From: a virus
DNA: 34,188 nt
IMG/VR virus record: IMGVR_UViG_3300032236_001742
Location: 1-34,188 of that record
Direction: 5' to 3' (one strand)
A program made the translations under genes and the position numbers. Positions 10,202-30,474 of the stretch are shown here, piece by piece; position 1 is the first letter of the stretch; each line of letters begins with the position of its first letter. A model generated the notes under the pieces. That model made no database searches and was not told the origin of the DNA. It saw only the letters and a list, made by a program, of their open reading frames with translations.

Positions 10202-10227
10202 GTCATAAAAAATTGAACACTAAACGT

Positions 10228-16063: not shown

Positions 16064-16519
16064 ATGAATCCGACAATACAGAAATTTTTTGAATTTTTAC
16101 GAGATAAAGAAGGGAAAGGAGTTCCAATGTCTGCAGAGCAATTTAAGACTGCTATATTAGACCCTAGTACTGATTTCTCTACTTTAGCAAATAGAGGAGT
16201 AGTAGGTAATGTTAATCTAGCAAATAACAAAGAAATCACAAAGCTACCAGAAGGTATGTTCTTTGGCGGAAATGTACTTTTAAACGAGACTTCTTTAACT
16301 GAAGTACCTAAAGGATCAAAATTCAATAAACAATTAGACCTTAACGGTACTAAGGTAGAGACTCTTCCACCTGATATATACGTAAGGGGGACTCTCTTCC
16401 TTTTCCGCACACCGCTTCGTGAAAACTTAATAGCACGAGGATTAAAGACTGATAGTCAAAGAATTATATATCTGAAAAAGCAATACCCAGGTCTACAAGG
16501 ATATTTAATTTACATTTAA
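16064..16519 (+). CDS. Leucine-rich repeat protein, paralog 6 (diverged)
   Basis: A 151-residue diverged LRR protein. The N-cap is IQKFFEFLRDKEGKG (residues 5-19), followed by a family-atypical insert (SAEQFKTAILDPSTDFSTLA) and about three degenerate repeats (EITKLPEGM, SLTEVPKGS, KVETLPPDI), then a C-cap ending LKKQYPGLQGYLIYI, where PG-Q-G is kept and the Cys is lost. It starts four bases after the previous paralog and ends three bases before the next. It shows that the cap-repeat-cap layout is the conserved unit while the repeat sequence drifts. Confidence 0.75.
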   Translation: MNPTIQKFFEFLRDKEGKGVPMSAEQFKTAILDPSTDFSTLANRGVVGNVNLANNKEITKLPEGMFFGGNVLLNETSLTEVPKGSKFNKQLDLNGTKVETLPPDIYVRGTLFLFRTPLRENLIARGLKTDSQRIIYLKKQYPGLQGYLIYI

Positions 16520-16522
16520 CGT

Positions 16523-17050
16523 ATGATCCACATAAAAAACTTTTTTGATTTTTTAGAGAAGAAAGAAGGAAGAAATAAGCCTCTTATGTATAAGCTTTTA
16601 CATACACCAGAAGACTTAACACCTGAAGATCTAGATGTAGAAGGAGATCTTACCCTACATGACAAACCAGTAACCTCTTTACCTGAAGGTTTAAAAGTAG
16701 GTGGAAGTCTTTATTTAAGTGATACTAGAATCACTTCTTTACCTAAAGGTTTAAAAGTAGGAGGAAATTTTACTTTTTGGAGTACTGAAATCACTTCTCT
16801 ACCTGAAGATTTAACAGTAGGTGAAGGTTTATATGTAAACTGCCCTGTACTTACTTCTATATCTAAAGGTTTAAGAGTAGGAGGAGATCTTGATTTGGAA
16901 GATACAGAAATCACTTCTCTACCTAAAGATTTAAAAGTAGGTGGGGATATTTTTCTTGTTAGAACACCTATAGCCAGAACATACAGTAAACTACAAGTAA
17001 GAGAAATGTGTCCCGGTATAAAAGGTGAGATTTACTATAAGGGATATTAA
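16523..17050 (+). CDS. Leucine-rich repeat protein, paralog 7
   Basis: A 175-residue LRR protein with the full family N-cap (IKNFFDFLEKKEG), about five and a half repeats and the C-cap (REMCPGIKGEIYYKGY). One repeat (VGEGLYVNCPVLTSISKG) has lost the T-x-I-T-S-L-P core while its neighbours keep it. The 60-base DNA units here closely resemble those of paralogs 3 and 4, so exchange between distant copies is plausible. It ends the LRR run; promoter 17052-17082 begins right after its stop. Confidence 0.85.
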   Translation: MIHIKNFFDFLEKKEGRNKPLMYKLLHTPEDLTPEDLDVEGDLTLHDKPVTSLPEGLKVGGSLYLSDTRITSLPKGLKVGGNFTFWSTEITSLPEDLTVGEGLYVNCPVLTSISKGLRVGGDLDLEDTEITSLPKDLKVGGDIFLVRTPIARTYSKLQVREMCPGIKGEIYYKGY

Positions 17051-17885: not shown

Positions 17886-18713
17886 ATGAGTAAAAAACAA
17901 GCTGTCTTGAGTCTCAGTGGAGGTATGGACAGTAGCACGCTATTGCTACATCTGTTAGCAGAGGGTTATGAAGTAACCGCATTATCGTTCGACTATGGTC
18001 AAAAACATAGAGTGGAATTAGAACGAGCACAGTCGTTAGTCGAGTACATTAATGGTCAATTCTCACCAGAGACTTATATCTACGAGTATTCACGAGTTAA
18101 ACACCAAATCATTAAACTAGACGGTCTAGCTCAATTACTAAATTCAGCTCTAGTAACAGGCGGTAAAGATGTTCCTGAAGGACATTACGAACAGGATAAC
18201 ATGAAAGAAACTGTTGTACCTAATCGTAATAAGATCTTTAGTTCATTAATTCAAGCAGTTGCTTTATCGTTAGCTACTACAGGTGAAAAACATGACGTAG
18301 CAATTGCACTAGGGATACATAGTGGAGATCATGCCATATATCCAGATTGCAGACAAGAATTTAGAGATGCTGATATGGAAGCATTTAAGATTGGTAATTG
18401 GGATTCTGAATTAATATCTTTCTATACTCCATACCTAAATACTGATAAGTTTGGTATCTTACAAGATGGTGAAATAGCATGTGAACAGCTAGGTTTAGAT
18501 TTTAATGAAGTTTACAAACGTACTAACACGAGTTACAAGCCATTCCTATCAGGTAATAGTGATTACAAATCAGCAGCATCAGTAGAACGTATTGAAGCTT
18601 TCTTGAAGCTAGGACGACCAGACCCAGTTCAATACGAAGATGAAACCGGACCAGTAACCTGGGAAGTAGCAAGAGCACATGTTGAACAAGTATTATCAAA
18701 CCACGTAAAATAA
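17886..18713 (+). CDS. queC: QueC-type 7-cyano-7-deazaguanine (preQ0) synthase
   Basis: A 275-residue PP-loop ATPase that turns 7-carboxy-7-deazaguanine into preQ0 with ATP and ammonia. The PP-loop SGGMDSSTL is at residues 11-19 and is followed by the family segments LSFDYGQKHRVEL, VPNRNKIF (112-119) and ALGIHSGDHAIYPDCRQEF (141-159). Oddity: the zinc-binding four-cysteine region seen in bacterial QueC before ERREAF is replaced by NTSYKPF-LSGNSDYKSAAS-VERIEAF (214-239), so all four cysteines are gone. The active-site parts are intact, so it is probably active with a metal-free subdomain. It is followed three bases later by dpdA, then queF and a formyltransferase. Confidence 0.93.
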   Translation: MSKKQAVLSLSGGMDSSTLLLHLLAEGYEVTALSFDYGQKHRVELERAQSLVEYINGQFSPETYIYEYSRVKHQIIKLDGLAQLLNSALVTGGKDVPEGHYEQDNMKETVVPNRNKIFSSLIQAVALSLATTGEKHDVAIALGIHSGDHAIYPDCRQEFRDADMEAFKIGNWDSELISFYTPYLNTDKFGILQDGEIACEQLGLDFNEVYKRTNTSYKPFLSGNSDYKSAASVERIEAFLKLGRPDPVQYEDETGPVTWEVARAHVEQVLSNHVK

Positions 18714-18716
18714 TTT

Positions 18717-19490
18717 ATGTTAATATCACACGAAATACCAAAGCAGCTATTTCTGTATCACGATCTTATATCGGATTACCCCTACGTACTAGGACATCTA
18801 CTAAAGAAAGATCCGGAGTATGCTGCCTTCTATAAAGAGAAATTAAAATCAGCTCCTTATTCTATTCTAGATAATTCTGCTTTTGAATTAGGAGAATCTA
18901 TTCCAATGGAGGAATTGTATGAATTAGGTAAGGAGTATAAACCAACACACTTAGTTCTACCTGATAAAGTTAATGATTACCACGTTACTCTAAGTAATGC
19001 TGCATCATACCTTGGAGCTTATAGAGAAGATGATCAGCAGTATATTGGAGTATGTCAAGGAGAGTCTTTTGATCAAATCTTTGATTGTGTTGAATTTTAT
19101 ACGCAGAATAAAGTAGACATTATAGCATTACCTTTTGATCTTATACCTGATTCTGATCACGTAACTATCCGTTACAGATTCTTAAACTGGATGCTACATG
19201 AAAAAAATATACCGTTAGGAATAAAGATACACCTGCTTGGTTGTCAAAACCCGGTCGAATTTCAATTATTTAAGACTCCTGGAGTAGTTAAAAGCTTCAT
19301 TCACTCCTTAGATACAAGCTCTCCGGTGGTAAATGGATGGGTAGGTAATGAATTAGGTCCACACGGTCTAACTAAACCAAAACCTAAAGCTAAACTAGCC
19401 GATAACCTAGATATCACATTAACACAGGATCAAATAGATCTTATTACTAAGAACGTTAAAACTTTCCGTAGCTATGTTAGAAACAATTAA
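18717..19490 (+). CDS. dpdA: DpdA-like DNA guanine transglycosylase
   Basis: A 257-residue TGT-fold protein, much shorter than tRNA-guanine transglycosylases. It should swap guanine in DNA for a 7-deazaguanine base. Candidate catalytic residues are Asp52 in ILDNSAFELG (equivalent to the base-binding Asp of TGT) and Asp199 in IHSLDTSSPVVNG (candidate nucleophile). VLPDKVND (80-87), GVCQGES (111-117), LPFD (138-141) and IHLLGCQNP (171-179) lie where TGT-type barrel strands are expected. The zinc-binding Cys cluster of tRNA TGT is not seen. DpdA of phages is the known enzyme for this step; I cannot assign its subfamily. It sits between queC and queF. Confidence 0.85.
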   Translation: MLISHEIPKQLFLYHDLISDYPYVLGHLLKKDPEYAAFYKEKLKSAPYSILDNSAFELGESIPMEELYELGKEYKPTHLVLPDKVNDYHVTLSNAASYLGAYREDDQQYIGVCQGESFDQIFDCVEFYTQNKVDIIALPFDLIPDSDHVTIRYRFLNWMLHEKNIPLGIKIHLLGCQNPVEFQLFKTPGVVKSFIHSLDTSSPVVNGWVGNELGPHGLTKPKPKAKLADNLDITLTQDQIDLITKNVKTFRSYVRNN

Positions 19491-19491
19491 T

Positions 19492-20397
19492 ATGAATGAT
19501 GCAGCGGCTAGATCTTTAGGATCTGCTAACTCCTATGCTGTATACACAGATAAATTTGACCCGTCTCAATTAAATCCAATGCCAAGATCTGCCGCAAGAG
19601 GAGACTATGGTATAACAGGTAAGGAATTTGTAGGAGTGGATACCTGGCATTGTCACGAAGCTACTTTCCTATTAGAAAGTGGATTACCTCTAGCAGGTAC
19701 TCTAAAAGTAATCTGTCCATCAGATTCAGAGTTTATGGTGGAATCGAAGTCGTTTAAACTCTATCTCAACACATTCGATATGTGTAGAATGGGTAAAACT
19801 ATAGACGAAGCTATTACTAACTACGAACAGCAAGTCAAGACTGATGTTAGTGCATGTATTGGTGCAAATGTAGATGTAAAGTTCTTTAGATCAGGAGCCG
19901 ATAGACTTATCAGTGATGACCCGGGTAAAAACTATATTGATCTTTATAGTTATATTCCAACTGATAAACTTGAATCTATACAAATAACAGATTATAGTTC
20001 TAGTGAATTCCATAGTGTTGTAGACGATTCAACAGCTACAAGTCAAGAAGCTTATTACTTCACAAATGTGTTAAGATCAAGATGTAGACACACCAAGCAA
20101 AAAGATACTGGTACTGCCTTCTTCTACATTAAAACCAAAAGAGGTGCTGTTAATCCAGTTGAATTACTTAAACTGGTCATATCGTTAAGAGAGGTAAATG
20201 AATTCCATGAATTTTGTGCCGAAAAGTTCTATATCGAACTAATGAGTAATCCTTTAATCGAAGAATGTAGTGTAATGTTACTATATGCTAGAAGAGGTTC
20301 TCTAGATATATGCCCAGTTAGAGCTACTAAACCATCTCTAATACCGCCGGCTATTAAGTCTATATACTACTACACAGTAAAAACAATGGGTCAATAA
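19492..20397 (+). CDS. queF: QueF, NADPH-dependent preQ0 reductase (long bacterial type)
   Basis: About 301 residues, near the 282 of E. coli QueF, and alignable along most of its length. The NADPH-binding motif ESKSFKLYLNTF is at 84-95. Catalytic Cys198 and Asp205 are seven residues apart in RSRCRHTKQKD, as in E. coli (Cys190/Asp197), and REVNEFHEFC (233-242) gives the His/Glu pair. So the true nitrile reductase chemistry (preQ0 to preQ1) is expected, not the amidino transfer of archaeal QueF-like proteins. The ATG at 19492 is one base after the dpdA stop; an in-frame ATG at 19474 would overlap dpdA by 17 bases and add six residues. Confidence 0.95.
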   Translation: MNDAAARSLGSANSYAVYTDKFDPSQLNPMPRSAARGDYGITGKEFVGVDTWHCHEATFLLESGLPLAGTLKVICPSDSEFMVESKSFKLYLNTFDMCRMGKTIDEAITNYEQQVKTDVSACIGANVDVKFFRSGADRLISDDPGKNYIDLYSYIPTDKLESIQITDYSSSEFHSVVDDSTATSQEAYYFTNVLRSRCRHTKQKDTGTAFFYIKTKRGAVNPVELLKLVISLREVNEFHEFCAEKFYIELMSNPLIEECSVMLLYARRGSLDICPVRATKPSLIPPAIKSIYYYTVKTMGQ

Positions 20398-20398
20398 T

Positions 20399-20968
20399 AT
20401 GAAACAACTTAATTGGTGTTGCTTCGCATCACAGACAGGTGGAGAGATATTCGACTTATGTCGTAATCTAGACATAATACCTAAGTTACTTATTACAAAT
20501 AACATTAAAAAGTTAAGAACAGATGTAACTAAGTACCTATATACTAATGGATGTAATATAAAGACAGTACCTTTTAATCCTCAAATCTCTGATTATCTCC
20601 AAGAGGATATCCTAAGTAGTAACATAATAACGTTACATGGATATCTACGCATCTTACCCGCCGAATTAATAAATAGCTATAGTCCTAGGGTGATCTACAA
20701 CGGTCATCCTGGGCTTATAACTTATTACCCGGAGCTAAAAGGAAAAGATCCTCAAATCAGGGCCTGGGAAGGTAAGTACGAGACAGTTGGATCGGTGGTA
20801 CATAAAGTAACGGAAGGAGTAGATGAAGGAGGAGTAGTGAGGTTCTCGGCAGTTAAAAACGTAGCTACAGATCTAGATACGATGTATGACTTACTAAAGC
20901 AAACTTCTTTAGATAGCTGGATTAAATTCTTTAAAGACCAGGTATTAAAGTTGGATAGTTCAAATTAA
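20399..20968 (+). CDS. dpdN: Formyltransferase, probable preQ1-DNA formylase (DpdN-like)
   Basis: A 189-residue GART/Fmt-fold formyltransferase. It has the N-terminal FASQTGG loop (9-15), then ILPAELINSY, then the catalytic region YNGHPGLITYYP with Asn101 and His103, and GVDEGGVV with Asp142. These match the Asn/His/Asp set of 10-formyltetrahydrofolate-dependent formyltransferases. It is about the size of PurN and much shorter than Fmt. It starts one base after the queF stop, in the dpd cluster. Published work on phage 7-deazaguanine DNA describes a predicted dPreQ1 formyltransferase, DpdN, giving 7-(formylamino)methyl-7-deazaguanine; position and fold fit that here. A PurN-like purine enzyme cannot be excluded by sequence alone. 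Confidence 0.8.
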   Translation: MKQLNWCCFASQTGGEIFDLCRNLDIIPKLLITNNIKKLRTDVTKYLYTNGCNIKTVPFNPQISDYLQEDILSSNIITLHGYLRILPAELINSYSPRVIYNGHPGLITYYPELKGKDPQIRAWEGKYETVGSVVHKVTEGVDEGGVVRFSAVKNVATDLDTMYDLLKQTSLDSWIKFFKDQVLKLDSSN

Positions 20969-20980
20969 TTCCTTATATTG
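20950..20980 (+). promoter_or_regulatory. Bacteroidota-type promoter inside the end of dpdN
   Basis: GTTG at 20950-20953 in the last codons of the formyltransferase, 20-base spacer, TATATTG at 20974-20980 (closest to the -7 TAnnTTTG consensus). It is followed by motif 2 at 20992, so the homing-endonuclease-like gene has both promoter types. Confidence 0.68.
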
Positions 20981-20991
20981 AAGATATAAAC

Positions 20992-21004
20992 CTATTTATA
21001 TTAA
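20992..21004 (+). promoter_or_regulatory. Motif 2 site (CTATTTATATTAA)
   Basis: Recurring motif 27 bases before the ATG at 21019, lying 11 bases after a -33/-7 promoter. The dual arrangement is unique in the window. Confidence 0.35.
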
Positions 21005-21018
21005 ATAATGGAGTAGGT

Positions 21019-21831
21019 ATGAACAAGACATTAAACAGAGATCTATATTACGGACCGGAAATTATAACACCAAAGCAGGAGATTGTAATTAATCCAACTA
21101 ATCCAGGAAAAGGATATAGTAAGAATACAGTAAAGTGGCGTCAAACTATTCAAATACTATGTAAAGACTGTGACAGTGTCTATAGTAGAAATTACGGAAG
21201 TCATCGACTGTTTATGTTAAAACGCTTAGCTAATAATTCTGATTATATTTGGAAGTGTCATGGGTGTAAAGTGCGGGAAAACAATATCAAGTACTATAAA
21301 GGAAAGACATTAGAAGAAAGGATAGGAGTAGAAAGAGCTAGTACAGTGAAGCAAAAACTAGGTCTTAAAGGTGCCGCAAATCCGCAATACGGTAAACCAG
21401 CTTATCAAGGAGGAGGAAATGGATGGAGTGGTTGGTATAGAGGTACTTACTTTAGAAGTATCAGAGAATTAAGTTTTATAGTAAAATACTTAGATAGGTT
21501 TAAGTTTAAATATCGAACTACCGAGAAGAAAACAGATGGAATACCGTATCTAGATTACAGGAAAAAACCACGTACATACTTTCCAGATTTCCTAGTTGAG
21601 GATAAGTTTCTTGTAGAAATAAAGCCTAGAGCATTATGGAATTCACAAGAAGTTTTAAATAAAAAAACAGCAGCAGTTGGATACTGTCAAAAAAATAACT
21701 ATATTTACAAAATAATAGATCCAATAACACTATCGTTTCCGGAAATACAGAAACTCTATAATGAAGGGGATATAGTTTGGTTAGATCGATACCAGAAAAA
21801 ATTTAACGAATTTAAAAAAATACACTTATGA
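21019..21831 (+). CDS. Homing-endonuclease-like protein with PD-(D/E)XK nuclease domain
   Basis: A 270-residue protein. Residues 50-95 hold zinc-finger-like CxxC pairs (LCKDCDSVY, KCHGCKVREN). Residues 95-140 hold a DNA-binding segment (KGKTLEERIGVERASTVKQ, NPQYGK) like NUMOD-type modules of phage homing endonucleases. Residues 145-205 give a PD-(D/E)XK nuclease: FRSIRELSFIV, then YFPDFLVEDKFLVEIKP with Asp, Glu and Lys in the expected order. It is free-standing and placed between dpdN and the ATPase/queD genes, so it probably inserted into the modification cluster. ATGGAGTAGGT before the ATG gives one of the few SD-like leaders. Its overlap with the next ATG (ATGA) suggests it is now tied into the operon. 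Confidence 0.8.
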   Translation: MNKTLNRDLYYGPEIITPKQEIVINPTNPGKGYSKNTVKWRQTIQILCKDCDSVYSRNYGSHRLFMLKRLANNSDYIWKCHGCKVRENNIKYYKGKTLEERIGVERASTVKQKLGLKGAANPQYGKPAYQGGGNGWSGWYRGTYFRSIRELSFIVKYLDRFKFKYRTTEKKTDGIPYLDYRKKPRTYFPDFLVEDKFLVEIKPRALWNSQEVLNKKTAAVGYCQKNNYIYKIIDPITLSFPEIQKLYNEGDIVWLDRYQKKFNEFKKIHL

Positions 21832-22337
21832 ATATATTAGTTGGATCCCACGGTACGGGAAAAAGTACACTACTAAAAGCAGTTCAAGAGAAGTATCCGG
21901 ATTACTACGTAACAGATGGATTCTCAAGACCTGTATATAAGATTGGTAAGATGCTAGATTTCTCTGAGCATGAAAAGCAAGTAGTTATTAACGAACTAAC
22001 GATGTGGGGATATCAAAACTACCTATCACATAGAAACGTTATATCTACTCGTAGTATTATTGACTGTATAATCTATACAGGTATCTTACATCCAAAGATC
22101 GATACGTCAGAGATGTTAGAGTTGTTCGAAGCAACTAAAAGTCAGGTAAACTATTTCTTCTATATTCCAATTGAATTTAGCTTTGTATATGATCCACAGA
22201 GATTAAACGAAGAGCTACAAAAGAAAGTAGATAGTCTATTTGTAGACTTTATTGAAGAGTATGTACCTAAGGAGCAGTTAGTTGTTATAACAGGTACTAT
22301 TGAAGAAAGATTAGAAACTATATCACAATACTTATAA
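21828..22337 (+). CDS. P-loop ATPase/kinase-like protein
   Basis: A 169-residue P-loop NTPase with Walker A GSHGTGKST at residues 6-14. The segment VTDGFSRPVYKIGKM follows, and then STRSIIDCIIYTGIL, the kind of strand-plus-helix seen in NadR-like or nucleotide-kinase-like AAA proteins. It is about the size of a small kinase and has no helicase motif. It starts inside the stop of the upstream gene (ATGA) and is followed four bases later by queD, so it may serve the deazapurine pathway, for example as a nucleotide kinase; this is inference. The substrate cannot be told. Confidence 0.75.
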   Translation: MNILVGSHGTGKSTLLKAVQEKYPDYYVTDGFSRPVYKIGKMLDFSEHEKQVVINELTMWGYQNYLSHRNVISTRSIIDCIIYTGILHPKIDTSEMLELFEATKSQVNYFFYIPIEFSFVYDPQRLNEELQKKVDSLFVDFIEEYVPKEQLVVITGTIEERLETISQYL

Positions 22338-22340
22338 ATT

Positions 22341-22802
22341 ATGACATTTCAATCAACTAAATTATTTGATGGGTACTCTACAGTCTTCCGCCAGTGGAAA
22401 GCAGAAGGTACTCACTGCAAATTCTTACATGGCTATGGAGTATCTTTTAAGGTTACGTTTGAGGGTGATCTAGATGAACGCAATTGGGTATGGGATTTTG
22501 GCGGTATGAAACGTGCCAAAGGTACCATCGATGGATTAAGTCCGAAGGCGTGGATGGATTATATGTTTGATCATACGTTAGTAGCTTCTATGGACGATCC
22601 TGAACTAGAGATTTTTAAAGAGCTACATGCTAAAAACATAGTACAACTAAGAATCGTACCTGCTACAGGTGCCGAACAGTTTGCTAAGTATATCTTTGGT
22701 AAACTAGTAGAGTTTGTAGAAGAAGAGACTAACCAAAGAGTCACTATAACTCAAGTAGAGTTTATGGAGAATGGTAAGAATACAGCAATTTATAAATCTT
22801 AA
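22341..22802 (+). CDS. queD: QueD-like 6-carboxy-tetrahydropterin synthase
   Basis: A 153-residue member of the QueD/PTPS family, which makes 6-carboxytetrahydropterin from dihydroneopterin triphosphate, the second step to preQ0. Cys26 in HCKFLHGY is the catalytic cysteine of the C-x3-H motif. DFGGMK (E. coli DFAELK), DHTLVA and GAEQFAKYI match family landmarks. Two of the usual three zinc-binding histidines differ: the His of the FxAAH motif aligns with Gln18 of FRQW, and the HGH is HGY (His30 kept, Tyr32). His25 beside Cys26 might replace a ligand. The FRQW/LHGY form is one I recall in some bacterial and phage PTPS proteins. It forms a short cluster with the ATPase and the next gene. Confidence 0.87.
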   Translation: MTFQSTKLFDGYSTVFRQWKAEGTHCKFLHGYGVSFKVTFEGDLDERNWVWDFGGMKRAKGTIDGLSPKAWMDYMFDHTLVASMDDPELEIFKELHAKNIVQLRIVPATGAEQFAKYIFGKLVEFVEEETNQRVTITQVEFMENGKNTAIYKS

Positions 22803-22821
22803 TATGGCACAGCAATTTATA
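22782..22821 (+). repeat. 13-bp direct repeat across the queD end
   Basis: ACAGCAATTTATA occurs exactly at 22782-22794 (end of queD) and again at 22809-22821 (codons 2-6 of the next gene). It could arise by slippage or mark the edge of an insertion or deletion. Direct observation; function unknown. Confidence 0.6.
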
Positions 22822-23289
22822 TTAAAACGAGGTGGATTAACCACTACTATAGACTCCAAAGTAATAGATCTAGAATACCAGTTAGAATTTACTGCCGGTT
22901 CCTCTCCACGAGATATCCTGACCGAAAGAGTGAACCAAATAGGAGTAAGCTGGGTAACAAAGACTCTAGATAAAACTACTCTAGTTAATCCAGCTAAACC
23001 TGTGGAAGCAAAAGAAAAGATGTGGCGAGTAAGCTTAGCAGGTAAAGACGGTGATTGTGAACCTTCGTTAACTAATCTAGCAAAAGAAATATTTCTAGCT
23101 ATGGCAGTACTGTTTGAAGGTGATGCTGAATTACAGATTAACAGGGTCGTAATTAGTTATGAAGATGAGTATATAGTATGTACAAAAGATACTATAGTTC
23201 CACCTGAACCCCATCAGTGGTTTGCCACACACTACGATTCAGTAAAGGAGTATGCAAAGGTTATAGGATTTACAGAGATTAAGGAATAA
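22804..23289 (+). CDS. Unknown protein in the queD cluster
   Basis: A 161-residue protein whose ATG at 22804 is one base after the queD stop; an in-frame start at 22771 inside queD is less likely. It has no recognised motif. The N-terminus is strand-like (QQFILKRGGLTTTIDSKVIDLEYQLEF), the middle has KMWRVSLAGKDGDCEPSLTNLAKEIFLAMAVLFEG and the C-terminus IVPPEPHQWFATHYDSVKEYAKVIGF, given here as reading fragments. No membrane segment. Tight spacing argues for co-expression with queD, but the sequence gives no role. Confidence 0.65.
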   Translation: MAQQFILKRGGLTTTIDSKVIDLEYQLEFTAGSSPRDILTERVNQIGVSWVTKTLDKTTLVNPAKPVEAKEKMWRVSLAGKDGDCEPSLTNLAKEIFLAMAVLFEGDAELQINRVVISYEDEYIVCTKDTIVPPEPHQWFATHYDSVKEYAKVIGFTEIKE

Positions 23290-23291
23290 AA

Positions 23292-23322
23292 GTTGCTAGT
23301 CTGATTAAAATTACTTATCTTT
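23292..23322 (+). promoter_or_regulatory. Bacteroidota-type promoter, start codon adjacent
   Basis: GTTG at 23292-23295 just after the stop at 23289, GTCTGA inside the spacer, TATCTTT at 23316-23322. The ATG of a 40-codon gene is at 23328, five bases past the -7 box. It may drive the whole unit through queE and the adenosyltransferase. Confidence 0.8.
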
Positions 23323-23327
23323 AGTGT

Positions 23328-23450
23328 ATGGAAGCAGTACTACATTTTCTAGGACTTTGCGGAGATAGCCACGTAAGTATCTTAAGTATGATTATAGAGT
23401 GGCCAAACTTTTCTCCTATCTCAAATTATATCAGGCAATTATTTAAGTAA
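23328..23450 (+). CDS. Tiny unknown protein (40 residues)
   Basis: A 40-residue frame, MEAVLHFLGLCGDSHVSILS and so on, ending SNYIRQLFK. It is supported by its position exactly at the short distance from a promoter where four other genes start (ATG four to six bases after the -7 box). Two cysteine/histidine residues (LCGDSHVS) are the only notable ones. If it is not translated, this stretch would be an untranslated leader for the gene at 23476, which has a strong SD. Moderate confidence that it is coding. Confidence 0.45.
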   Translation: MEAVLHFLGLCGDSHVSILSMIIEWPNFSPISNYIRQLFK

Positions 23451-23464
23451 CAATTTAAAAACAT

Positions 23465-23470
23465 GGAGGT
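23465..23470 (+). promoter_or_regulatory. Unusually strong Shine-Dalgarno (GGAGGT)
   Basis: GGAGGT six bases before the ATG at 23476. Nearly every other gene in the window has an A-rich leader without SD, so this one stands out. It fixes the start of the 68-residue gene. Confidence 0.6.
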
Positions 23471-23475
23471 AAACT

Positions 23476-23682
23476 ATGAAGTGTATTAAGAGTAAAGCAG
23501 ACGGTACTATAAAGAGAGTAACCGATGAAGTAGCATTTGCAACAGTAGGTTCTAAATGGGACTATGTGTCTAAGAGTGAATGGAAAAAGGCTACTAGAGT
23601 AGCTGTAGAAGTAACAGCACCCGCTGTAGTAGAAGAAACCACAGTTGCTGAAAAGCAATTAAAACGTAAAAAGCAAAGGTAG
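23476..23682 (+). CDS. Small Lys-rich unknown protein
   Basis: A 68-residue basic protein. It starts MKCIKSKADGTIKRVTDEVA, then WDYVSKSEWKKATR, a short Val/Ala/Glu linker, and a Lys/Arg tail (KQLKRKKQR). The front half resembles a small domain common in phage genomes (a K-A-D-G-x-I-x-R-V pattern ending Y-V-S-K-S-E-W-K) with no known function, from memory. The strong SD at 23465 suggests it is made at high level. It is followed one base later by the gene at 23684. Confidence 0.68.
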   Translation: MKCIKSKADGTIKRVTDEVAFATVGSKWDYVSKSEWKKATRVAVEVTAPAVVEETTVAEKQLKRKKQR

Positions 23683-23683
23683 T

Positions 23684-24082
23684 ATGAAAGTAGTAGATTT
23701 ATTAGGAAACGAAATTAAAGTAAACGATATAGTAACACATGCCACTAAGTGTACTAATAGCGCTTACCTTAGAAGAAGTATCGTAAAATCAATTACAAGA
23801 GACCGTATCTCTAAAGATACTTTTGACTACACAGTTGCTTTAAAGAGTATAACTGTAGATAAAGGACATAGGTGGAAATGGATAGAGAATGCTTACATAA
23901 AGGTACCTAACGAAACATTTGTAACCTTTGGTAGTACATCACAGAGTATTTACGTATCAAAAGATACACCTGTAGATACCATAGAATTCAAGGGCATTAG
24001 ATTAGGTACTCTAGAACAAGCCTATACTTCTGAAGAAGTGGAAGCAATTAAGAAAACTTCAACAAAATTAAATTATGAGTAA
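23684..24082 (+). CDS. Unknown protein upstream of queE
   Basis: A 132-residue protein beginning KVVDLLGNEIKVNDIVTHA, a start common in small beta-barrel (SH3-like or KOW-like) domains of phage proteins. The middle has RWKWIENAYIKVPNETFV, and the end is helical and charged. No catalytic motif. It overlaps queE by eight bases (stop TAA at 24080-24082, queE ATG at 24075), so translation is coupled. It may regulate or accompany queE, or be an unrelated operon member. Confidence 0.65.
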   Translation: MKVVDLLGNEIKVNDIVTHATKCTNSAYLRRSIVKSITRDRISKDTFDYTVALKSITVDKGHRWKWIENAYIKVPNETFVTFGSTSQSIYVSKDTPVDTIEFKGIRLGTLEQAYTSEEVEAIKKTSTKLNYE

Positions 24083-24926
24083 AATAGACCCAAACAAATT
24101 ATTAATATCTTCTGACTTCTATTCCGTACAAGGAGAGGGTATTTCATCTGGTATACCTTCTTACTTTGTAAGATTAGGTGTCTGTAATCTAACTTGTGGT
24201 ATGTCTCGTCAATTTGCTAATAAGTTGATGAAAGAGAAAACACTAGAGGATGGTGAAATATTCAAAGGTGATTTAGAGTTAGAAGGTAAAGCAACCTGGA
24301 CTTGTGATTCAACAAGTCAATGGTTATGGAGAGGTGAAGATAAAGAATTCCAATACCTAATTGACAGATGGAAGGAACAAGGTATCTACGATGATATTCT
24401 AGACGGTACTATCCATATTATCTGGACTGGTGGTGAGCCAACGATTAAAGGACATCAAGAGGCTATTGTTAATTTCATTGAGTATTGGCGTAAATGGGAC
24501 CTAGAACAACCAGGTAATGTTGAAGACTGTATACCCTATCATGAAATAGAAACTAACGGTACTATAGTAATTGAAGATGAATTGTTTAGTTGGTTAAGCC
24601 AAATTAACTGTTCACCTAAACTAACTAATTCAGGTTTAGATAAAAAGCAACGTATTAATCCAGACGCTATTAAGCGTATAATGCAACATGATAGTTATCA
24701 ATTCAAATTCGTAATTTCAAATGAAGAAGATGTACAAGAAATTTTTAGCGACTTTATCGTACCATTTAGCATACCTCTTAAACATGTAGTAATAATGCCT
24801 GGAATGGATAGTCAAGAAGATTTCCATGAAAGAACTCAATTTAGCTTAGAAATGGCTAAGAAGTATAGACTGAGAGGCTTAACAAGATTACACATCAGCG
24901 GATGGGATAAGACATTAAACGTATAG
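24075..24926 (+). CDS. queE: QueE-like radical SAM 7-carboxy-7-deazaguanine synthase
   Basis: A 283-residue radical SAM enzyme that makes 7-carboxy-7-deazaguanine from the QueD product. FYSVQGEG (15-22), PSYFVRLGVCNLTC, WTGGEPT and HEIETNGT match QueE landmarks. The [4Fe-4S] cysteines are unusual: Cys37 and Cys41 lie in CNLTC, but the third is Cys77 in TWTCDST, so the usual C-x3-C-x2-C is C-x3-C-x35-C, with about 33 residues inserted in the cluster loop. A QueE variant with a spacing change is known in bacteria (C-x14-C-x2-C in Burkholderia), but there the extra residues fall between the first two cysteines. The remainder, ending LTRLHISGWDKTLNV, looks intact. Confidence 0.9.
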   Translation: MSKIDPNKLLISSDFYSVQGEGISSGIPSYFVRLGVCNLTCGMSRQFANKLMKEKTLEDGEIFKGDLELEGKATWTCDSTSQWLWRGEDKEFQYLIDRWKEQGIYDDILDGTIHIIWTGGEPTIKGHQEAIVNFIEYWRKWDLEQPGNVEDCIPYHEIETNGTIVIEDELFSWLSQINCSPKLTNSGLDKKQRINPDAIKRIMQHDSYQFKFVISNEEDVQEIFSDFIVPFSIPLKHVVIMPGMDSQEDFHERTQFSLEMAKKYRLRGLTRLHISGWDKTLNV

Positions 24927-24929
24927 TAT

Positions 24930-25202
24930 ATGATCTGCCCACAATGTAAAGAACAGGGATTAAAATCAACCGTTCAGACTAAAGGTACAATAACTACTCT
25001 AATGGGATATGCTGGGTGGTATGATGAAAGTGGTAAGTATCACCATCATGATGATAATAGTAGAACAACTGTTGGAACCTGTAGCAACGGACACAAGTTT
25101 TTGTATAGATATGAGAATAGCTGCTGGTGCGGATGGGTGGGTAAAACAGAAGAATATAAAGTAATAAACCTACAGTATGAAAGTATACACAAAGAAGGGT
25201 GA
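24930..25202 (+). CDS. Zinc-ribbon-like small protein
   Basis: A 90-residue protein with cysteine and histidine clusters: ICPQCKEQG at the N-terminus, GKYHHHDD in the middle, GTCSNGHKF near 50, and SCWCGWVGK near 65. The CxxC plus C-x3-H plus CxC arrangement suggests one or two zinc-binding ribbons. The HHHDD tract may add a metal site. It lies three bases after queE and overlaps the adenosyltransferase start by 26 bases, so it is co-translated with both. Nucleic-acid or protein binding is likely; no specific role can be named. Confidence 0.7.
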   Translation: MICPQCKEQGLKSTVQTKGTITTLMGYAGWYDESGKYHHHDDNSRTTVGTCSNGHKFLYRYENSCWCGWVGKTEEYKVINLQYESIHKEG

Positions 25203-25692
25203 TGATGGGACTACAAGTCTATTAAGTGGTAAAAGAACTGCTAAAATTACACCTAAGATAAAAGCAGTTGGTGCATTAGATGAATTAAATTCATTTGTTG
25301 GAGTAGTAGAATCTAAAAGTAATAATACACTAAATTTCGAAACCTTACAGTGGGATCTATTCAATATGGGTGCTATGGTCATAAACGATAATGGCATGGA
25401 GCTTGAAACTGTTGAAGAAAGTGATATTACTGATTTGGAGTACGTAATGGATCTCCTACAAGATCAACTACCCCCACTTAAGAACTTTATACTACCTCGT
25501 GGAAGCGAACTAGTAACAGCTATACATGTTTGTAGATCAGTTTGTAGAAGAGCTGAAATAGCCTGTATTGAAGCAGATGCCGATTCAATCATAATAAGAT
25601 ACCTAAACAGATTAAGCGATTACTTTTTTGTATTAGCCCGCTATACAGACTACAAGGAAGGAGGACAGGAAACACTTTGGAAAACTAAATAA
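25177..25692 (+). CDS. PduO-type cob(I)alamin adenosyltransferase
   Basis: A 171-residue PduO/MMAB-type ATP:cob(I)alamin adenosyltransferase. It opens with MKVYTKKGDDGTTSLLSG, the ATP-binding N-terminus of the family (usually TRxGDxGxT), followed by AVGALDELNSFVG. Near the C-terminus come ILPRGSELVTAIHVCRSVCRRAE and RYLNRLSDYFFVLAR, matching the conserved arginine and NRLSD elements. It transfers adenosyl to cobalamin, making the cofactor used by the class II ribonucleotide reductase at 10228, about 13 kb upstream. This is its clearest partner in the window. The start overlaps the zinc-ribbon gene by 26 bases. Confidence 0.93.
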   Translation: MKVYTKKGDDGTTSLLSGKRTAKITPKIKAVGALDELNSFVGVVESKSNNTLNFETLQWDLFNMGAMVINDNGMELETVEESDITDLEYVMDLLQDQLPPLKNFILPRGSELVTAIHVCRSVCRRAEIACIEADADSIIIRYLNRLSDYFFVLARYTDYKEGGQETLWKTK

Positions 25693-25700
25693 AAACAAAT

Positions 25701-25841
25701 ATGACAGTAGCAATTTTAACATTAGTAGTACTAGTAGTAACAGTACTTGTGCTTGGAGTACAGAAAGCAAAAAAGAAAAGAGGTGGTTTACCGCCTGAAT
25801 CTCAAGTAGATTGGAATAATATAGTTGGAGAATCGGAATAA
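25701..25841 (+). CDS. Tiny single-span membrane protein (46 residues)
   Basis: A 46-residue protein with a hydrophobic helix at residues 3-20 (VAILTLVVLVVTVLVLGV), then KAKKKRGG and a polar tail PPESQVDWNNIVGESE. The layout (short N-terminus, membrane span, Lys/Arg-rich cytoplasmic flank) fits a single-pass inner-membrane protein. It starts eight bases after the adenosyltransferase stop. Its last codons overlap the -33 part of promoter 25824-25854. The role is unknown. Confidence 0.65.
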   Translation: MTVAILTLVVLVVTVLVLGVQKAKKKRGGLPPESQVDWNNIVGESE

Positions 25842-25854
25842 AATCCTTATATTA
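25824..25854 (+). promoter_or_regulatory. Bacteroidota-type promoter for folE, start codon adjacent
   Basis: GTTG at 25824-25827, 20-base spacer, TATATTA at 25848-25854. The folE ATG at 25861 is six bases past the -7 box. This excludes the upstream in-frame TTG at 25825 as the start, since that codon is inside the -33 box. Confidence 0.75.
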
Positions 25855-25860
25855 AGACAT

Positions 25861-26574
25861 ATGAGTAAGATAGTAAATATAGAAGAGCTTGAAGTAGCTC
25901 AACCCGGACATGCTAATGGAATCTCTCTACAACTAGCTAGTAAAGTAGCATTAAACCCTACTACGCCATCTTTATCTGAAGATGAAAAGCAAGCAATTAT
26001 AGAAGAGGCTGCCATGCACTTCGGTAGATTCCTAACTGCATTAGGAGTGGATTGGGTAAATGACCCGAATAGTAGTAACACACCAAGACGTGTAGCAAAG
26101 GCTTACGTCCGAGATTTATGGAGAGGTAGGTACGAAGCTTTATCTCCGGTGATAACATTTCCTGCCGATGGTTATACAGGATTAGTATTTGAAGGTAACA
26201 TACCGGTTACAAGTATGTGTTCACACCACCACCAGCAAATCTCAGGTAAAGTACATATCGCTTACATACCAACAGCTGAAGGTAGGGTGATTGGTTTATC
26301 TAAACTAAATCGTATCGTAGAACACTTTGCAAGAAGAGGTGCTATCCAAGAACAACTAACAGTAGCTATACATAGTGCAGTAAAGAATATCTGTGAAGGT
26401 AATCAAGGTGTAGCTGTGATGATAGAGGCCGGACATAGCTGTGTATCTTGTAGAGGAGTTAAGCATCAAGGTGCTAATATGATTACCTCTAAATTAGATG
26501 GAGCATTTATGGATGAAGATGCTTGTAGGAGTGAATTCTACGAGTTCGTAAAGACAAGTAAGAGTGGAAAATAA
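25861..26574 (+). CDS. folE: GTP cyclohydrolase I
   Basis: A 237-residue GTP cyclohydrolase I, the entry enzyme of the 7-deazaguanine pathway (GTP to dihydroneopterin triphosphate). MCSHHHQQ supplies the first zinc Cys and His and GHSCVSCRGVKH the later Cys. NTPRRVAKAYVRD, VIGLSKLNRIVEHFARRG and QEQLTVAI match family blocks, with the usual catalytic histidines. Its own promoter sits immediately in front and the ATG at 25861 is preferred. The product also feeds folate synthesis, so a dual use is possible, but co-occurrence with QueD/QueE/QueC argues for DNA modification. It overlaps the next gene's GTG by 11 bases. Confidence 0.95.
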   Translation: MSKIVNIEELEVAQPGHANGISLQLASKVALNPTTPSLSEDEKQAIIEEAAMHFGRFLTALGVDWVNDPNSSNTPRRVAKAYVRDLWRGRYEALSPVITFPADGYTGLVFEGNIPVTSMCSHHHQQISGKVHIAYIPTAEGRVIGLSKLNRIVEHFARRGAIQEQLTVAIHSAVKNICEGNQGVAVMIEAGHSCVSCRGVKHQGANMITSKLDGAFMDEDACRSEFYEFVKTSKSGK

Positions 26575-28161: not shown

Positions 28162-30474
28162 ATGCAAGAAATACAAAAAAGTTACGTTACAGTCAATACT
28201 ATTGACACTCTAACCTCGTTAGTAAACCATATCCGTGAAAATGAGCTTATTGCTCTAGATATCGAAACCGATTCACTTAATCCTAGAAAGGGTCGAGTGA
28301 TCGGTTTTTCTATCTGCGGTAAAGAGGGACATAGTTACTACATGCCTACTATGGTATTTAAGGATGAGAAGTTAGATAATTTATACATAGGTAAGCATGA
28401 TTGTCAAGAGTTAGCATATAAGACTCTATCTATGCTTGTAGATAAAAAGGTTATATGTCATAATGCTGCATTTGACTTGAGATTCATTAAGAATTTCTAC
28501 GATATCAACCTAATACCTTCTCTACATGCCGATACAATGTTACTTGTTCACACAGTACAGGAAGAGGGTGCATTTGGGTTAGGTAATCCTTTTGGTTTGA
28601 AATCAATTGCTAAAATGGTTCAGAAGGAGTTAGGTTTAGATATTGATACTGAAGCTAATGAAGAGCAGATAGAACTAAAAGAGAGTATTAAGAGGAATGG
28701 CGGAAGTACGACTAAGGATTGCTTTGAGATTTATAAAGCAGATATGGATATCTTGGCTAAGTATGGTGCTGCCGATACTGACTTAACTCTCCGTATCTAT
28801 AACTACTTTGCACAGAAGCTAATAGACGAGAATCTAGAAGATTTCTTTTTCAACGAAGAGGTTATGCCTGTCTATAAAGAGGTTACGATACCAATGGAAG
28901 AGTATGGTGTTGAACTAGATATGGAATTAATTAAAGATACCAAGGATAAGATAGAGAAAGACTTGGATGAGTATGCTAGATTAGTAACCGAAGAGCTATT
29001 AACTGATTCTAGAGTCAAGCAATGGATAATGGATATAGCTTTAAAGGCTTATCCACCAACCACTAAAGGTACATTTGCCCAGGAATTGATTAGACAATCA
29101 GGTATTGAATTACCTAAGTCTGAGAAGACCGGTAAGTTTACTTTAAATAAGAGTACCGTTTTATCTCTACCAGAAGGGGATCTCAAGCAGTTCTTAGTTG
29201 TAGGTGATCTTAATATACTACCACGAGAAACCCTTGTTAAAACCAGTCTAACACTGTGGAAAGAAGATAATGAAGGTAAGTACTTCAACATACAATCTAA
29301 AGACCAGTTAGGTCAGATTGCTTTTGATGTCTTAGGTATCAAACCTTTATCTACTACAGCAAAAGGTAAACCTCAATTTGATGATGATGTTATTGAAGTT
29401 ATTTCAAAGACTGAGAAGTGGGCCGAAAACTTACGTATCTACAACAAGCTACTAAAGATCAAGTCTACTTATGTAGATAGATTTTACGATAGGCATGAGG
29501 ATGGTAGGTACTATTTTTACTTTAAGCAGCATGGTACAGTATCGGGAAGATACGGTTCTGATCTACAGCAGCTACCTAAACCTAAAGAAGATGGCGAGGC
29601 AGCACCTATCATAGTTCATTACAATAATCTAGTCAGAGCATTCCTGGTAGCAGAAGAAGGTAGGATGTTAATTGACTGTGACTATGAATCTCTAGAACCA
29701 CACTGCTTTGCATCTGTTACAGGTGATGAGAAGTTACAGGAGATCTTTAATATGAACCACGACTTCTACTCCACTGTAGCTATTCAGACCGAAAAGCTAG
29801 AAGGTGTTAGTGCCGATAAGAAAGCACCTAACTTCCTTAAAAAGCTTGACCCTGTTAAGAGAAATAAGGCTAAAGCCTATTCTCTAGGTATTGCCTATGG
29901 GATGGAGTCATTTGCATTAGCTAAGACTTTAGATATACCTCAAAAAGAGGCCGATAAACTAGTACAGGGTTACTTAGATGGTTTTCCTGGTCTAAAAGCA
30001 TGGAGAGAGAATTCAAGGCAGTTTGTTAAAGAGAATGGTTATATCGTTAATAAGGTAGGTAGGATTAGACACTTACCTAGAGTTAAACAGATCTATGCAA
30101 CTACTGGAGATCAAATACTAGATTGGAGGTTTAGAAAGGAGCTAGAAGGTAAGTACGGTAAAGAACGAGTACTTCAAGTCTACAGAGACTATAAGAATGG
30201 ATTGAATAACTGTCTAAACTACCAGTTACAGTCTTTAGCTGCCGCGGTTGTGAATAGAGCTGCTGTACAGATTAATAGAGAGTTAAAGAAGATGGGTATT
30301 GATGGATTAGTCCAGGCACAAGTACATGACCAGTTAATCATAAATGTACCGGTAGAACATGCCGAAGAGGTAGCTAAGATGGTAAAAGAGAAGATGGAAA
30401 ATACTACTAAGCTAGATGGCGTTACGCTTAAAGCACCTCCTGCTTTATCTAAGAATTTTCGTGATGGCCATTGA
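28162..30474 (+). CDS. Family A replicative DNA polymerase with 3'-5' exonuclease
   Basis: A 770-residue DNA polymerase. Residues 30-215 form the DnaQ-like exonuclease: ALDIETDSL (Exo I), HNAAFDLRFI (Exo II) and GAADTDLTLRIY (Exo III) give the metal-binding acids. The polymerase domain has VSGRYGSDLQQLP, motif A LIDCDYESLEPHCFA, motif B KRNKAKAYSLGIAYGM and motif C QVHDQLII (the usual HDE is HDQ). No 5' nuclease domain is present; that role is filled by the protein at 7514. So this is the main replicase, unlike T4, which uses family B. The last residues run on to GHG-like DGH before TGA. The next ATG is at 30510. Confidence 0.95.
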   Translation: MQEIQKSYVTVNTIDTLTSLVNHIRENELIALDIETDSLNPRKGRVIGFSICGKEGHSYYMPTMVFKDEKLDNLYIGKHDCQELAYKTLSMLVDKKVICHNAAFDLRFIKNFYDINLIPSLHADTMLLVHTVQEEGAFGLGNPFGLKSIAKMVQKELGLDIDTEANEEQIELKESIKRNGGSTTKDCFEIYKADMDILAKYGAADTDLTLRIYNYFAQKLIDENLEDFFFNEEVMPVYKEVTIPMEEYGVELDMELIKDTKDKIEKDLDEYARLVTEELLTDSRVKQWIMDIALKAYPPTTKGTFAQELIRQSGIELPKSEKTGKFTLNKSTVLSLPEGDLKQFLVVGDLNILPRETLVKTSLTLWKEDNEGKYFNIQSKDQLGQIAFDVLGIKPLSTTAKGKPQFDDDVIEVISKTEKWAENLRIYNKLLKIKSTYVDRFYDRHEDGRYYFYFKQHGTVSGRYGSDLQQLPKPKEDGEAAPIIVHYNNLVRAFLVAEEGRMLIDCDYESLEPHCFASVTGDEKLQEIFNMNHDFYSTVAIQTEKLEGVSADKKAPNFLKKLDPVKRNKAKAYSLGIAYGMESFALAKTLDIPQKEADKLVQGYLDGFPGLKAWRENSRQFVKENGYIVNKVGRIRHLPRVKQIYATTGDQILDWRFRKELEGKYGKERVLQVYRDYKNGLNNCLNYQLQSLAAAVVNRAAVQINRELKKMGIDGLVQAQVHDQLIINVPVEHAEEVAKMVKEKMENTTKLDGVTLKAPPALSKNFRDGH

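Follow-up and report, generated by a model that had tools for sequence, protein, structure and literature searches.

The window (the whole 34,188-nucleotide stretch of viral DNA analyzed here) carries genes of 7-deazaguanine synthesis between positions 17886 and 26574, which raises the question of what modified base they make and how that base would enter the phage genome. Whether phage deazaguanines are inserted only after replication or whether a modified dGTP is also built was described as open in 2019, in the available sections of that paper (PMC6884629).

Gene content and linkage of the cassette

A sequence-only reading of this DNA had listed seven genes in the region. All of them (queC, dpdA, queF, formyltransferase, queD, queE, and folE) have open frames on the plus strand and identifiable homologies, which for dpdA and queE were found with PHROG profiles; these two genes had no Pfam match at 0.001. 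That list was incomplete, since a kinase gene at 21828–22337 also belongs to the set. The features are as follows:

17886..18713, plus strand: queC, preQ0 synthase homologue without zinc cysteines (Pfam QueC 4.9e-39)
18717..19490, plus strand: small dpdA, 257-aa transglycosylase with TGT fold (phrog_19058 1.8e-23)
19474..20397, plus strand: queF, NADPH-dependent nitrile reductase, preQ0 to preQ1 (QueF_N 3.4e-25; PDB 3bp1 2.7e-31)
20399..20968, plus strand: dpdN-type formyltransferase (Formyl_trans_N 1e-10)
21828..22337, plus strand: P-loop kinase, putative dTMP/dNMP type (phrog_2107 thymidylate kinase 1.1e-15; AAA_28 27.9 bits, cut-off 27)
22341..22802, plus strand: queD, FRQW/HGY subfamily (PTPS 4.3e-14; phrog_2389 1.6e-37)
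24075..24926, plus strand: queE, radical SAM CDG synthase homologue (phrog_2076 6.8e-35)
25825..26574, plus strand: folE, GTP cyclohydrolase I (GTP_cyclohydroI 7.2e-45; phrog_2197 5.4e-61)
28162..30474, plus strand: family A DNA polymerase (DNA_pol_A 2.7e-60)

The longest folE frame begins with TTG at 25825, with a likely alternative start, judged by eye, at ATG 25861; queF starts at 19474 or 19492. Among 80 loci seeded with QueF, dpdN was found in 75, dpdA in 74, and the kinase in 73. When only the 42 IMG/VR loci flanked on each side by 2.5 kb or more were considered, dpdA, dpdN, and the kinase were each present in 41, so the gene set is real and chance grouping is ruled out. The order dpdA-queF-dpdN-kinase occurs in 43 of the 80 loci and dpdA-dpdN-kinase-queF in 26, and both orders hold the four genes together. 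The open reading frame counts given below for queC, queD, queE, and dpdN exclude repeats of one record; the window itself appears as L001 and L002.

The nearest named phage is Flavobacterium phage vB_FspM_immuto_2-6A (MW353175), in which queD, queE, folE, dpdA, formyltransferase, kinase, queF, and polA lie within ∼10 kb and queC is present elsewhere in the genome; the window has all of these genes. The gene order differs, and the identity is 37.8% for dpdN and 31.6% for dpdA. PolA follows the cassette in immuto as well, and the polymerase is a putative member of the system. A gene for a MazG-like PRA-PH domain protein is located just upstream of immuto dpdA. The sequence-only reading had considered such a set easy to miss, which applies to dpdA, annotated as 'hypothetical protein' in CP220 and Youna2, but not to the immuto set, most of which is annotated.

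A cobalamin-related role in the cassette was rejected for pduO (25177–25692), which is accounted for by a B12-dependent class II RNR (10213–12078); pduO was present in 2 of 95 records fetched via dpdN or QueF, compared with 90 of 95 for dpdN.

QueF, the formyltransferase, and the predicted product

QueF matched the NCBIfam QueF model at 1.3e-51, yet its score of 175.8 bits is below the cut-off of 293.45. The Cys198/Asp205 pair named earlier was counted from Met7 and corresponds to C204/D211 in the 307-aa frame. Both residues and the ESKSFKLYLN segment align with the solved QueF 3bp1, so the residues of a bimodular nitrile reductase and the NADPH motif are present. The formyltransferase begins one base after queF, as had been noted (queF ends at 20397, the ATG is at 20399). 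Its N101, H103, and D142 are invariant in 34/34 aligned sequences, and 89 of 90 dpdN reading frames contain both formyltransferase motifs.

The best solved relatives of the formyltransferase are PurN proteins (family profile against 3kcq, 6e-19), and its best NCBIfam match is TIGR00639 (PurN), which would fit a phage PurN enzyme that supplies purine synthesis with formyl-GAR and whose gene adjoins queF by chance. However, the TIGR00639 score is far under the cut-off (48.1 versus 150.1 bits), the gene is kept with queF, dpdA, and the kinase across two gene orders, and in two contigs of one phage lineage a GNAT acyltransferase follows queF in place of dpdN, with no dpdN match in the whole records of these contigs (19,323 and 9,034 bases). 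We therefore regard the PurN assignment as very improbable. A GNAT in the dpdN position is as expected if this slot modifies the preQ1 amine, and the predicted product of that lineage is N-acetyl-preQ1.

The steps from FolE to QueF also form the bacterial preQ1 route, and the pathway might thus boost queuosine in host tRNA instead of modifying phage DNA; raised Q in host tRNA has been proposed for phages without DpdA (PMC6884629, sections available). The cassette itself encodes a DpdA-type transglycosylase, however, and this explanation is the most remote of those weighed here. We also know of no place for formylated preQ1 in Q synthesis, which further counts against it.

In the proposed scheme, FolE, QueD, QueE, and QueC would convert GTP to preQ0, which QueF would reduce to preQ1. 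The formyltransferase would use 10-formyl-tetrahydrofolate to formylate the preQ1 amine, as its family and the gene order suggest, either before or after base insertion, and the small DpdA would exchange guanine for the deazaguanine. We infer every reaction of this scheme from the observed gene content, folds, residues, and gene association. On this basis, we consider it likely that these genes and the kinase together form a cassette that supplies the phage DNA with 7-(formylamino)methyl-7-deazaguanine. Formylated preQ1, already proposed in the sequence-only reading, is the best-supported predicted product, in line with the retained Asn, His, and Asp of DpdN, its linkage to queF and dpdA, and the same genes in immuto. 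A system of this kind has been reported in phages: in 2023 Cui and colleagues reportedly described formylated preQ1 in phage DNA, possibly in immuto (as fdPreQ1), and named DpdN.

Departures in QueC, QueD, and QueE

QueC retains SGGMDSS, which conforms to SGGxDS, and YPDCRQEF, but all four cysteines of the C-x8-CxxCxxC zinc motif are replaced by Ser/Tyr, as in immuto. Among 53 queC reading frames, 48 are cysteine-free (Ser/Tyr in 47, a Ser/Phe variant in one) and five keep CxxCxxC. In QueD, catalytic Cys, Asp-His, and Glu, together with three zinc-binding His residues, are the hallmarks; the first group is present in alignment with QueD of 9g, Dp-1, and Youna2, but only one of the three zinc ligands is kept and HGH is changed to HGY. 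This form is shared with immuto and with 24 of 25 related queD reading frames, none of which has HGH. The candidate cluster cysteines of QueE comprise a CxxxC and, past an insert inside the motif, a third Cys (Cys37, Cys41, and Cys77), and 33 of 38 queE reading frames contain both pieces of this motif; the match to the PDB QueE 4njg is weak (E 0.0042). The earlier statement that every step is covered is thus too strong: with QueC lacking the zinc motif and QueD lacking two zinc ligands, the complete pathway rests on homology.

QueC might no longer be a preQ0 synthase, with the host supplying preQ0 or preQ1 and the phage genes topping up the other steps, a reading compatible with either insertion route discussed below. 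The loss of the zinc cysteines throughout most of the lineage speaks for it, and in the available portion of a 2026 family study, in which C-x8-CxxCxxC is treated as canonical, a loss of activity is predicted from altered QueC signatures (PMC13329287). Since the protein is conserved (63.1% identity to immuto QueC over 99%) and SGGMDSS and YPDCRQEF are intact, QueC is probably under selection, and we consider its loss of function unlikely.

The small DpdA and its kinase neighbor

The AlphaFold2 model of the small DpdA (pLDDT 94.0) was superimposed with VIA-align on bacterial DpdA 7ui4 (Z 17.1, rmsd 3.3, 233 residues) and arcTGT 1iq8 (Z 17.1, rmsd 3.1, 232 residues). Arg152 is invariant in small DpdA. 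Small DpdA could not be usefully aligned with DpdA1 and DpdA2 by profile comparison; control L129 entered that comparison as only 4 residues, since the frame used contained a stop. Relatives were found by single-protein scans, as the conserved stretches were too few for a profile scan, and the scan with Youna2 small DpdA returned none. Enterobacteria phage 9g (dG+, DpdA1) resembles the window in having preQ0 genes and DpdA next to replication genes, but its DpdA is larger (317 aa), does not match the small-DpdA profile A4, and has no kinase within 2.5 kb. Where the window has queF and dpdN beside dpdA, 9g has a combined Gat-QueC (PMC6884629, available sections).

The kinase adopts the TMK/NadR/deoxynucleoside-kinase fold and has a GSHGTGKS P-loop. 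Its top structural match is NadR 8x7f (VIA-align, Z 16.4, rmsd 3.1 over 162), TMK 2pbr also matches (Z 14.3, rmsd 3.7 over 164), and it may also be a nucleoside or ribosylnicotinamide kinase, so the dTMP/dNMP type is putative. Of 87 usable small-DpdA loci, 82 have a kinase of this type no more than 2.5 kb from DpdA (75/80 without seven same-record repeats), compared with 0/18 control loci with 9g-, Dp-1-, or nt-1-type DpdA, although the queries were taken from small-DpdA neighborhoods, a bias that favors this group. Clustering at 50% identity gave the same association (12/14 small-DpdA versus 0/5 control clusters, Fisher 0.0018). The flank rule had removed 24 of 111 small-DpdA loci and one of 19 controls, and four further loci were omitted, namely L119 and L120, whose DpdA matches were weak and partial, L141, where the match fell at the end of a contig, and L146, a repeat of L098; with stops set to X, control L129 still clustered with 9g. 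A Walker A scan, used as a check and not as the main count since it is insensitive (phiST and T4-type kinases were missed), found no kinases beside the controls, nor did a Pfam check among the 25 of 53 families listed. In the record of control L129, an AAA_28 protein lies ∼3.6 kb away from DpdA.

The kinases beside small DpdA span phrog_2107, phrog_761, phrog_139, and phrog_19196, which belong to one P-loop superfamily with some cross-matches. The kinase gene shares 4 bases with dpdA in Youna2, BSTP12, and BSTP10. In Campylobacter phages CP220 and CC_R7 it comes directly after the small dpdA; no Campylobacter phage was among the dpdN or QueF matches. In five small-DpdA loci (L017, L023, L024, L110, and L144) the 2.5-kb neighborhood contains no kinase, although in L023 and L024 it lies farther away. 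The family is not dedicated to this role, as Bacteroides phage SJC03 has a homologue of the kinase but no small-DpdA match in its record. The kinase is a conserved cassette component that the sequence-only reading overlooked; we make no claim that its association with small DpdA is unpublished.

Route of insertion

Since the dNMP-type kinase travels with small DpdA, our leading, though tentative, reading is that this enzyme acts on a mononucleotide. It would swap the guanine of dGMP for formyl-preQ1 or preQ1, the neighboring kinase would raise the modified dGMP to the diphosphate, and the phage family A polymerase would incorporate the modified triphosphate, which would allow complete guanine replacement. 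In T4, the hydroxymethyl-dCMP route and the gp1-type dNMP kinase provide a precedent for a phage kinase that raises a modified dNMP to the diphosphate, except that one-carbon group transfer makes the modified nucleotide there and base exchange would do so in the window. In Ahp1, D479, and Bakedbeans, the kinase next to small DpdA matches the T4 gp1-type family. Complete guanine replacement is reportedly a feature of a DpdA3 subfamily described by Cui and colleagues in 2023; the term 'DpdA3' was not found among the literature matches listed. In the available sections of PMC6884629, Campylobacter phages are reported to be highly dADG-modified, and the modified dGTP idea was voiced for them.

The sequence-only reading had assumed insertion followed by formylation in finished DNA, which becomes one of two readings given the kinase. 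It is about equally likely that DpdA puts preQ1 into finished DNA, DpdN formylates it there, and the kinase serves general dNTP supply. Bacterial DpdA has the same fold as small DpdA, other nucleotide and replication genes (dUTPase-like, polymerase) are also nearby, phage 9g DpdA together with Gat-QueC modifies plasmid DNA already resident in Escherichia coli (PMC6884629, available sections), and a 2025 review names the mechanism post-replicative (PMC12707154, in part). In the portions of the literature surveyed, no phage deazaguanine system is shown to be pre-replicative. Exchange on finished DNA, however, leaves unexplained why kinases of several families recur beside small DpdA and not beside the other DpdA types compared.

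A nucleotide-level exchange might recruit further enzymes, and the lack of enrichment of two candidates counts against it. MazG (PF03819) was rejected, as it was present in only 2/42 records (phiST and one control), and so was a phosphoribosyltransferase (PF00156), present in 10/30 small-DpdA and 4/12 control records, with immuto passing the cut-off only when neighbors in frame are included.

Implications

If QueC is inactive, the preQ0 source would be the host; if it works, a cysteine-free QueC narrows what catalysis by this family needs. The acyl cap is possibly exchangeable as part of the dGMP reading, formyl being added by DpdN and acetyl by GNAT, while the kinases beside small DpdA come from four or more PHROG families. 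A kinase tied to one DpdA lineage, and not to two others compared, names enzymes for the question of whether modified dGTP is built. If exchange does occur on dGMP, it would explain complete guanine replacement, offer an enzymatic source of functionalized 7-deaza-dGTP, and mean that phages vary their anti-restriction chemistry by swapping a single acyltransferase gene.

The pathway genes of the window

The 34,188-base window is a single IMG/VR virus record with a G+C content of ∼35%, and a tRNA search found none. The seven genes named in the sequence-only reading (folE, queD, queE, queC, queF, dpdA and the formyltransferase gene dpdN) were recovered at their places as open frames with family matches, all on one strand. 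The formyltransferase gene indeed follows queF directly, with its start codon 1 base past the queF stop. The Cys198/Asp205 pair ascribed to QueF is also present and corresponds to Cys204/Asp211 in the 307-residue frame (198/205 if counted from Met7). The solved bimodular QueF 3bp1 (2.7e-31) aligns with most of the window protein, and the catalytic Cys and Asp as well as the NADPH motif fall at matching positions. DpdA had no Pfam match at 0.001. Its AlphaFold2 model (pLDDT 94.0) has a tRNA-guanine transglycosylase fold and matches the solved bacterial DpdA 7ui4 (Foldseek 6.7e-7; VIA-align Z 17.1, rmsd 3.3 over 233 residues).

The earlier gene list was incomplete, as it lacked the gene at 21828–22337. 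The product of this gene is a P-loop kinase (AAA_28 match; phrog_2107, ‘thymidylate kinase’), and its model (pLDDT 87.9) adopts a thymidylate-kinase/NadR/deoxynucleoside-kinase fold. Between the formyltransferase and kinase genes lies a gene with a TnsA-like endonuclease domain (21019–21831), which was found in the window only (1 of the 95 records fetched by dpdN or QueF) and looks like an inserted homing-type gene.

Gene association around QueF

A QueF scan of IMG/VR gave 131 relatives, and the loci of the best 80 were analysed. Over its last 250 residues, QueF has 55 different sequences in this set, so not all loci are independent. Among these best 80 of 131, dpdN is present in 75, dpdA in 74 and the kinase gene in 73, and among the 42 whose two flanks each measure 2.5 kb or more, each of the three genes is found in 41. 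The order dpdA-queF-dpdN-kinase occurs in 43 of the 80 and dpdA-dpdN-kinase-queF in 26; the remaining 11, mostly short loci, have other or incomplete orders. The second order is also that of the nearest named phage, Flavobacterium phage vB_FspM_immuto_2-6A (immuto; laboratory host Flavobacterium sp. LMO8), which in addition carries queD, queE, folE and polA, with queC elsewhere. The formyltransferase is rare in named phages: tblastn against 50,697 phage records matched 8 of them (4 of immuto and 4 weak matches of Listeria phages, 26%). QueF was found in 57.

Altered motifs in QueC, QueD and QueE

The view that the cassette covers every step of the pathway stands as far as the presence of homologues is concerned, but the metal-ligand motifs are altered in QueC and QueD. 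The QueC family motif C-x8-CxxCxxC is described in a 2026 study (PMC13329287), and all four of its cysteines are absent from the window protein. The loci hold 53 queC ORFs once repeats of one record are taken out: 47 have the Ser/Tyr version, which immuto QueC shares with the window, one has a Ser/Phe variant and five have CxxCxxC. The window QueD belongs to a subfamily in which HGY replaces HGH (24 of 25 queD ORFs), common to Cellulophaga phage phiST, the IMG/VR lineage L121 and Brevundimonas phage StAshley. In QueE three cysteines are kept, the third separated from the second by an insert. Since these changes are conserved, all three proteins are probably functional, judging from sequence. 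In two loci whose QueC retains the cysteines, the gene beside queC (L017:5113–5796 and L102:8390–9004) starts with MCSIF or MCGIF, a start that by eye resembles that of a class II glutamine amidotransferase.

Other genes of the phage

The phage also encodes a B12-dependent class II ribonucleotide reductase (10213–12078) and a PduO-type cobalamin adenosyltransferase (25177–25692), and may thus look after its own B12 cofactor; among the 95 records, pduO was found besides the window only in its closest relative. Of two DNA polymerase A matches (1463–2788 and 28162–30474), one is a full exonuclease-polymerase and the other a weak C-terminal polymerase match only. A GroEL-like chaperonin gene lies at 31719–33368; in immuto, GroES-GroEL stand directly behind polA. 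Paralogous leucine-rich-repeat-like proteins with SLPEGLKVGG-type repeats are spread across the window, encoded at 593–1132, 4193–5014, 16064–16519, 16523–17050 and by neighbouring genes.

A kinase gene accompanies the small DpdA

A kinase gene lies within 2.5 kb of the transglycosylase lineage of the window (small DpdA) in 82 of 87 usable loci, and of 9g-, Dp-1- and nt-1-type DpdA in 0 of 18 control loci, in a scripted count whose kinase queries were identical for both groups but were drawn from the small-DpdA group, which biases it towards that group; loci with a flank below 1.5 kb on a side were dropped (24 of 111 and 1 of 19, respectively). Removal of repeats of the same record (7 of the 87, including Campylobacter phage CP220, present as L104 and L116) left a kinase in 75 of 80. 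When the loci were clustered, a kinase was found in 12/14 small-DpdA versus 0/5 control clusters at 50% identity (Fisher 0.0018), in 6/7 versus 0/4 at 40% (0.015) and in 18/21 versus 0/7 at 60% (0.0001). The five loci with no kinase within 2.5 kb of small DpdA are L017, L023, L024, L110 and L144; in L023 and L024 it is present together with dpdN, farther from dpdA. A Walker A scan of the 18 control loci matched only the Dp-1 QueC, 2.4 kb away, and among the Pfam families listed (25/53) for 73 control neighbours from 13 loci there was no kinase. The control record L129 has an AAA_28 protein ∼3.6 kb from dpdA.

The kinases belong to several families. One stands beside small DpdA in Campylobacter phages CP220 and CC_R7, an AAA_18 kinase in phiST, and a T4-type dNMP kinase (phrog_139 or Pfam DNMK) in Aeromonas Ahp1, Vibrio D479 and Bakedbeans. 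In Weizmannia Youna2 and Bacillus BSTP12 and BSTP10 the kinase gene overlaps dpdA by 4 bases; the first two kinases are phrog_761 thymidylate kinases, and that of BSTP10 is annotated ‘putative thymidylate kinase’. Two IMG/VR lineages have a fusion protein in which the AAA_18 kinase domain follows a front domain that by eye resembles a T-fold.

Fused kinase genes near small dpdA
L121:3082–3996, directly upstream of dpdA; front domain phrog_17812, of unknown function
L122:1489–2457, one gene away from dpdA, AAA_18 match below the Pfam cut-off; front domain phrog_17812, of unknown function

In CP220, the gene immediately upstream of dpdA encodes an HD-phosphohydrolase and AAA_33 fusion (L104:6868–7899), so that this position holds a second enzyme of nucleotide type. 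Small DpdA is annotated as hypothetical in CP220 and in most Campylobacter phages among the matches listed, and it would fit the gap described for Campylobacter phages by Hutinet et al. 2019 (PMC6884629), where the idea of a modified dGTP was raised.

Base exchange on dGMP or on finished DNA

A kinase is not required if the base is exchanged on finished DNA. The presence of dNMP-type kinases of several families beside DpdA fits an exchange on dGMP: DpdA would swap the base on dGMP, and the kinase would then raise the product to the triphosphate for use by the polymerase. We regard this nucleotide route as a serious possibility that falls somewhat short of an even chance. Against it, the kinase family also occurs in Bacteroides phage SJC03, without small DpdA, and the fold also fits nucleoside kinases and NadR. 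Two further genes that such a route might recruit showed no enrichment with small DpdA. Post-replicative exchange on finished DNA is given the same probability; Cui et al. 2023 reportedly concluded that deazaguanine insertion is post-replicative. The same view of insertion is given in a 2025 review (PMC12707154).

The acyltransferase slot and the predicted product

In the locus L098, a 165-residue GNAT acyltransferase (Acetyltransf_10, 25.7 bits versus a cut-off of 23.6) stands between queF and the kinase gene, in the place of dpdN. The genes are arranged alike in L147, a contig from a closely related strain, as far as the first 30 residues of the GNAT, where the contig ends. The dpdN profile had no match in either whole record (fragments of 19,323 and 9,034 bases). 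This swap was found in one lineage only. It supports the reading that the enzyme in the slot, DpdN or GNAT, would act on the preQ1 amine, and the GNAT would predict acetylated preQ1.

The formylated preQ1 proposed for the window is probably the right product. The modification is of a known kind, and the formyltransferase DpdN has reportedly been proposed before. For specialists, the points of interest are the association of a kinase with small DpdA, the QueC that lacks its cysteines and the exchange of one acyltransferase for another.
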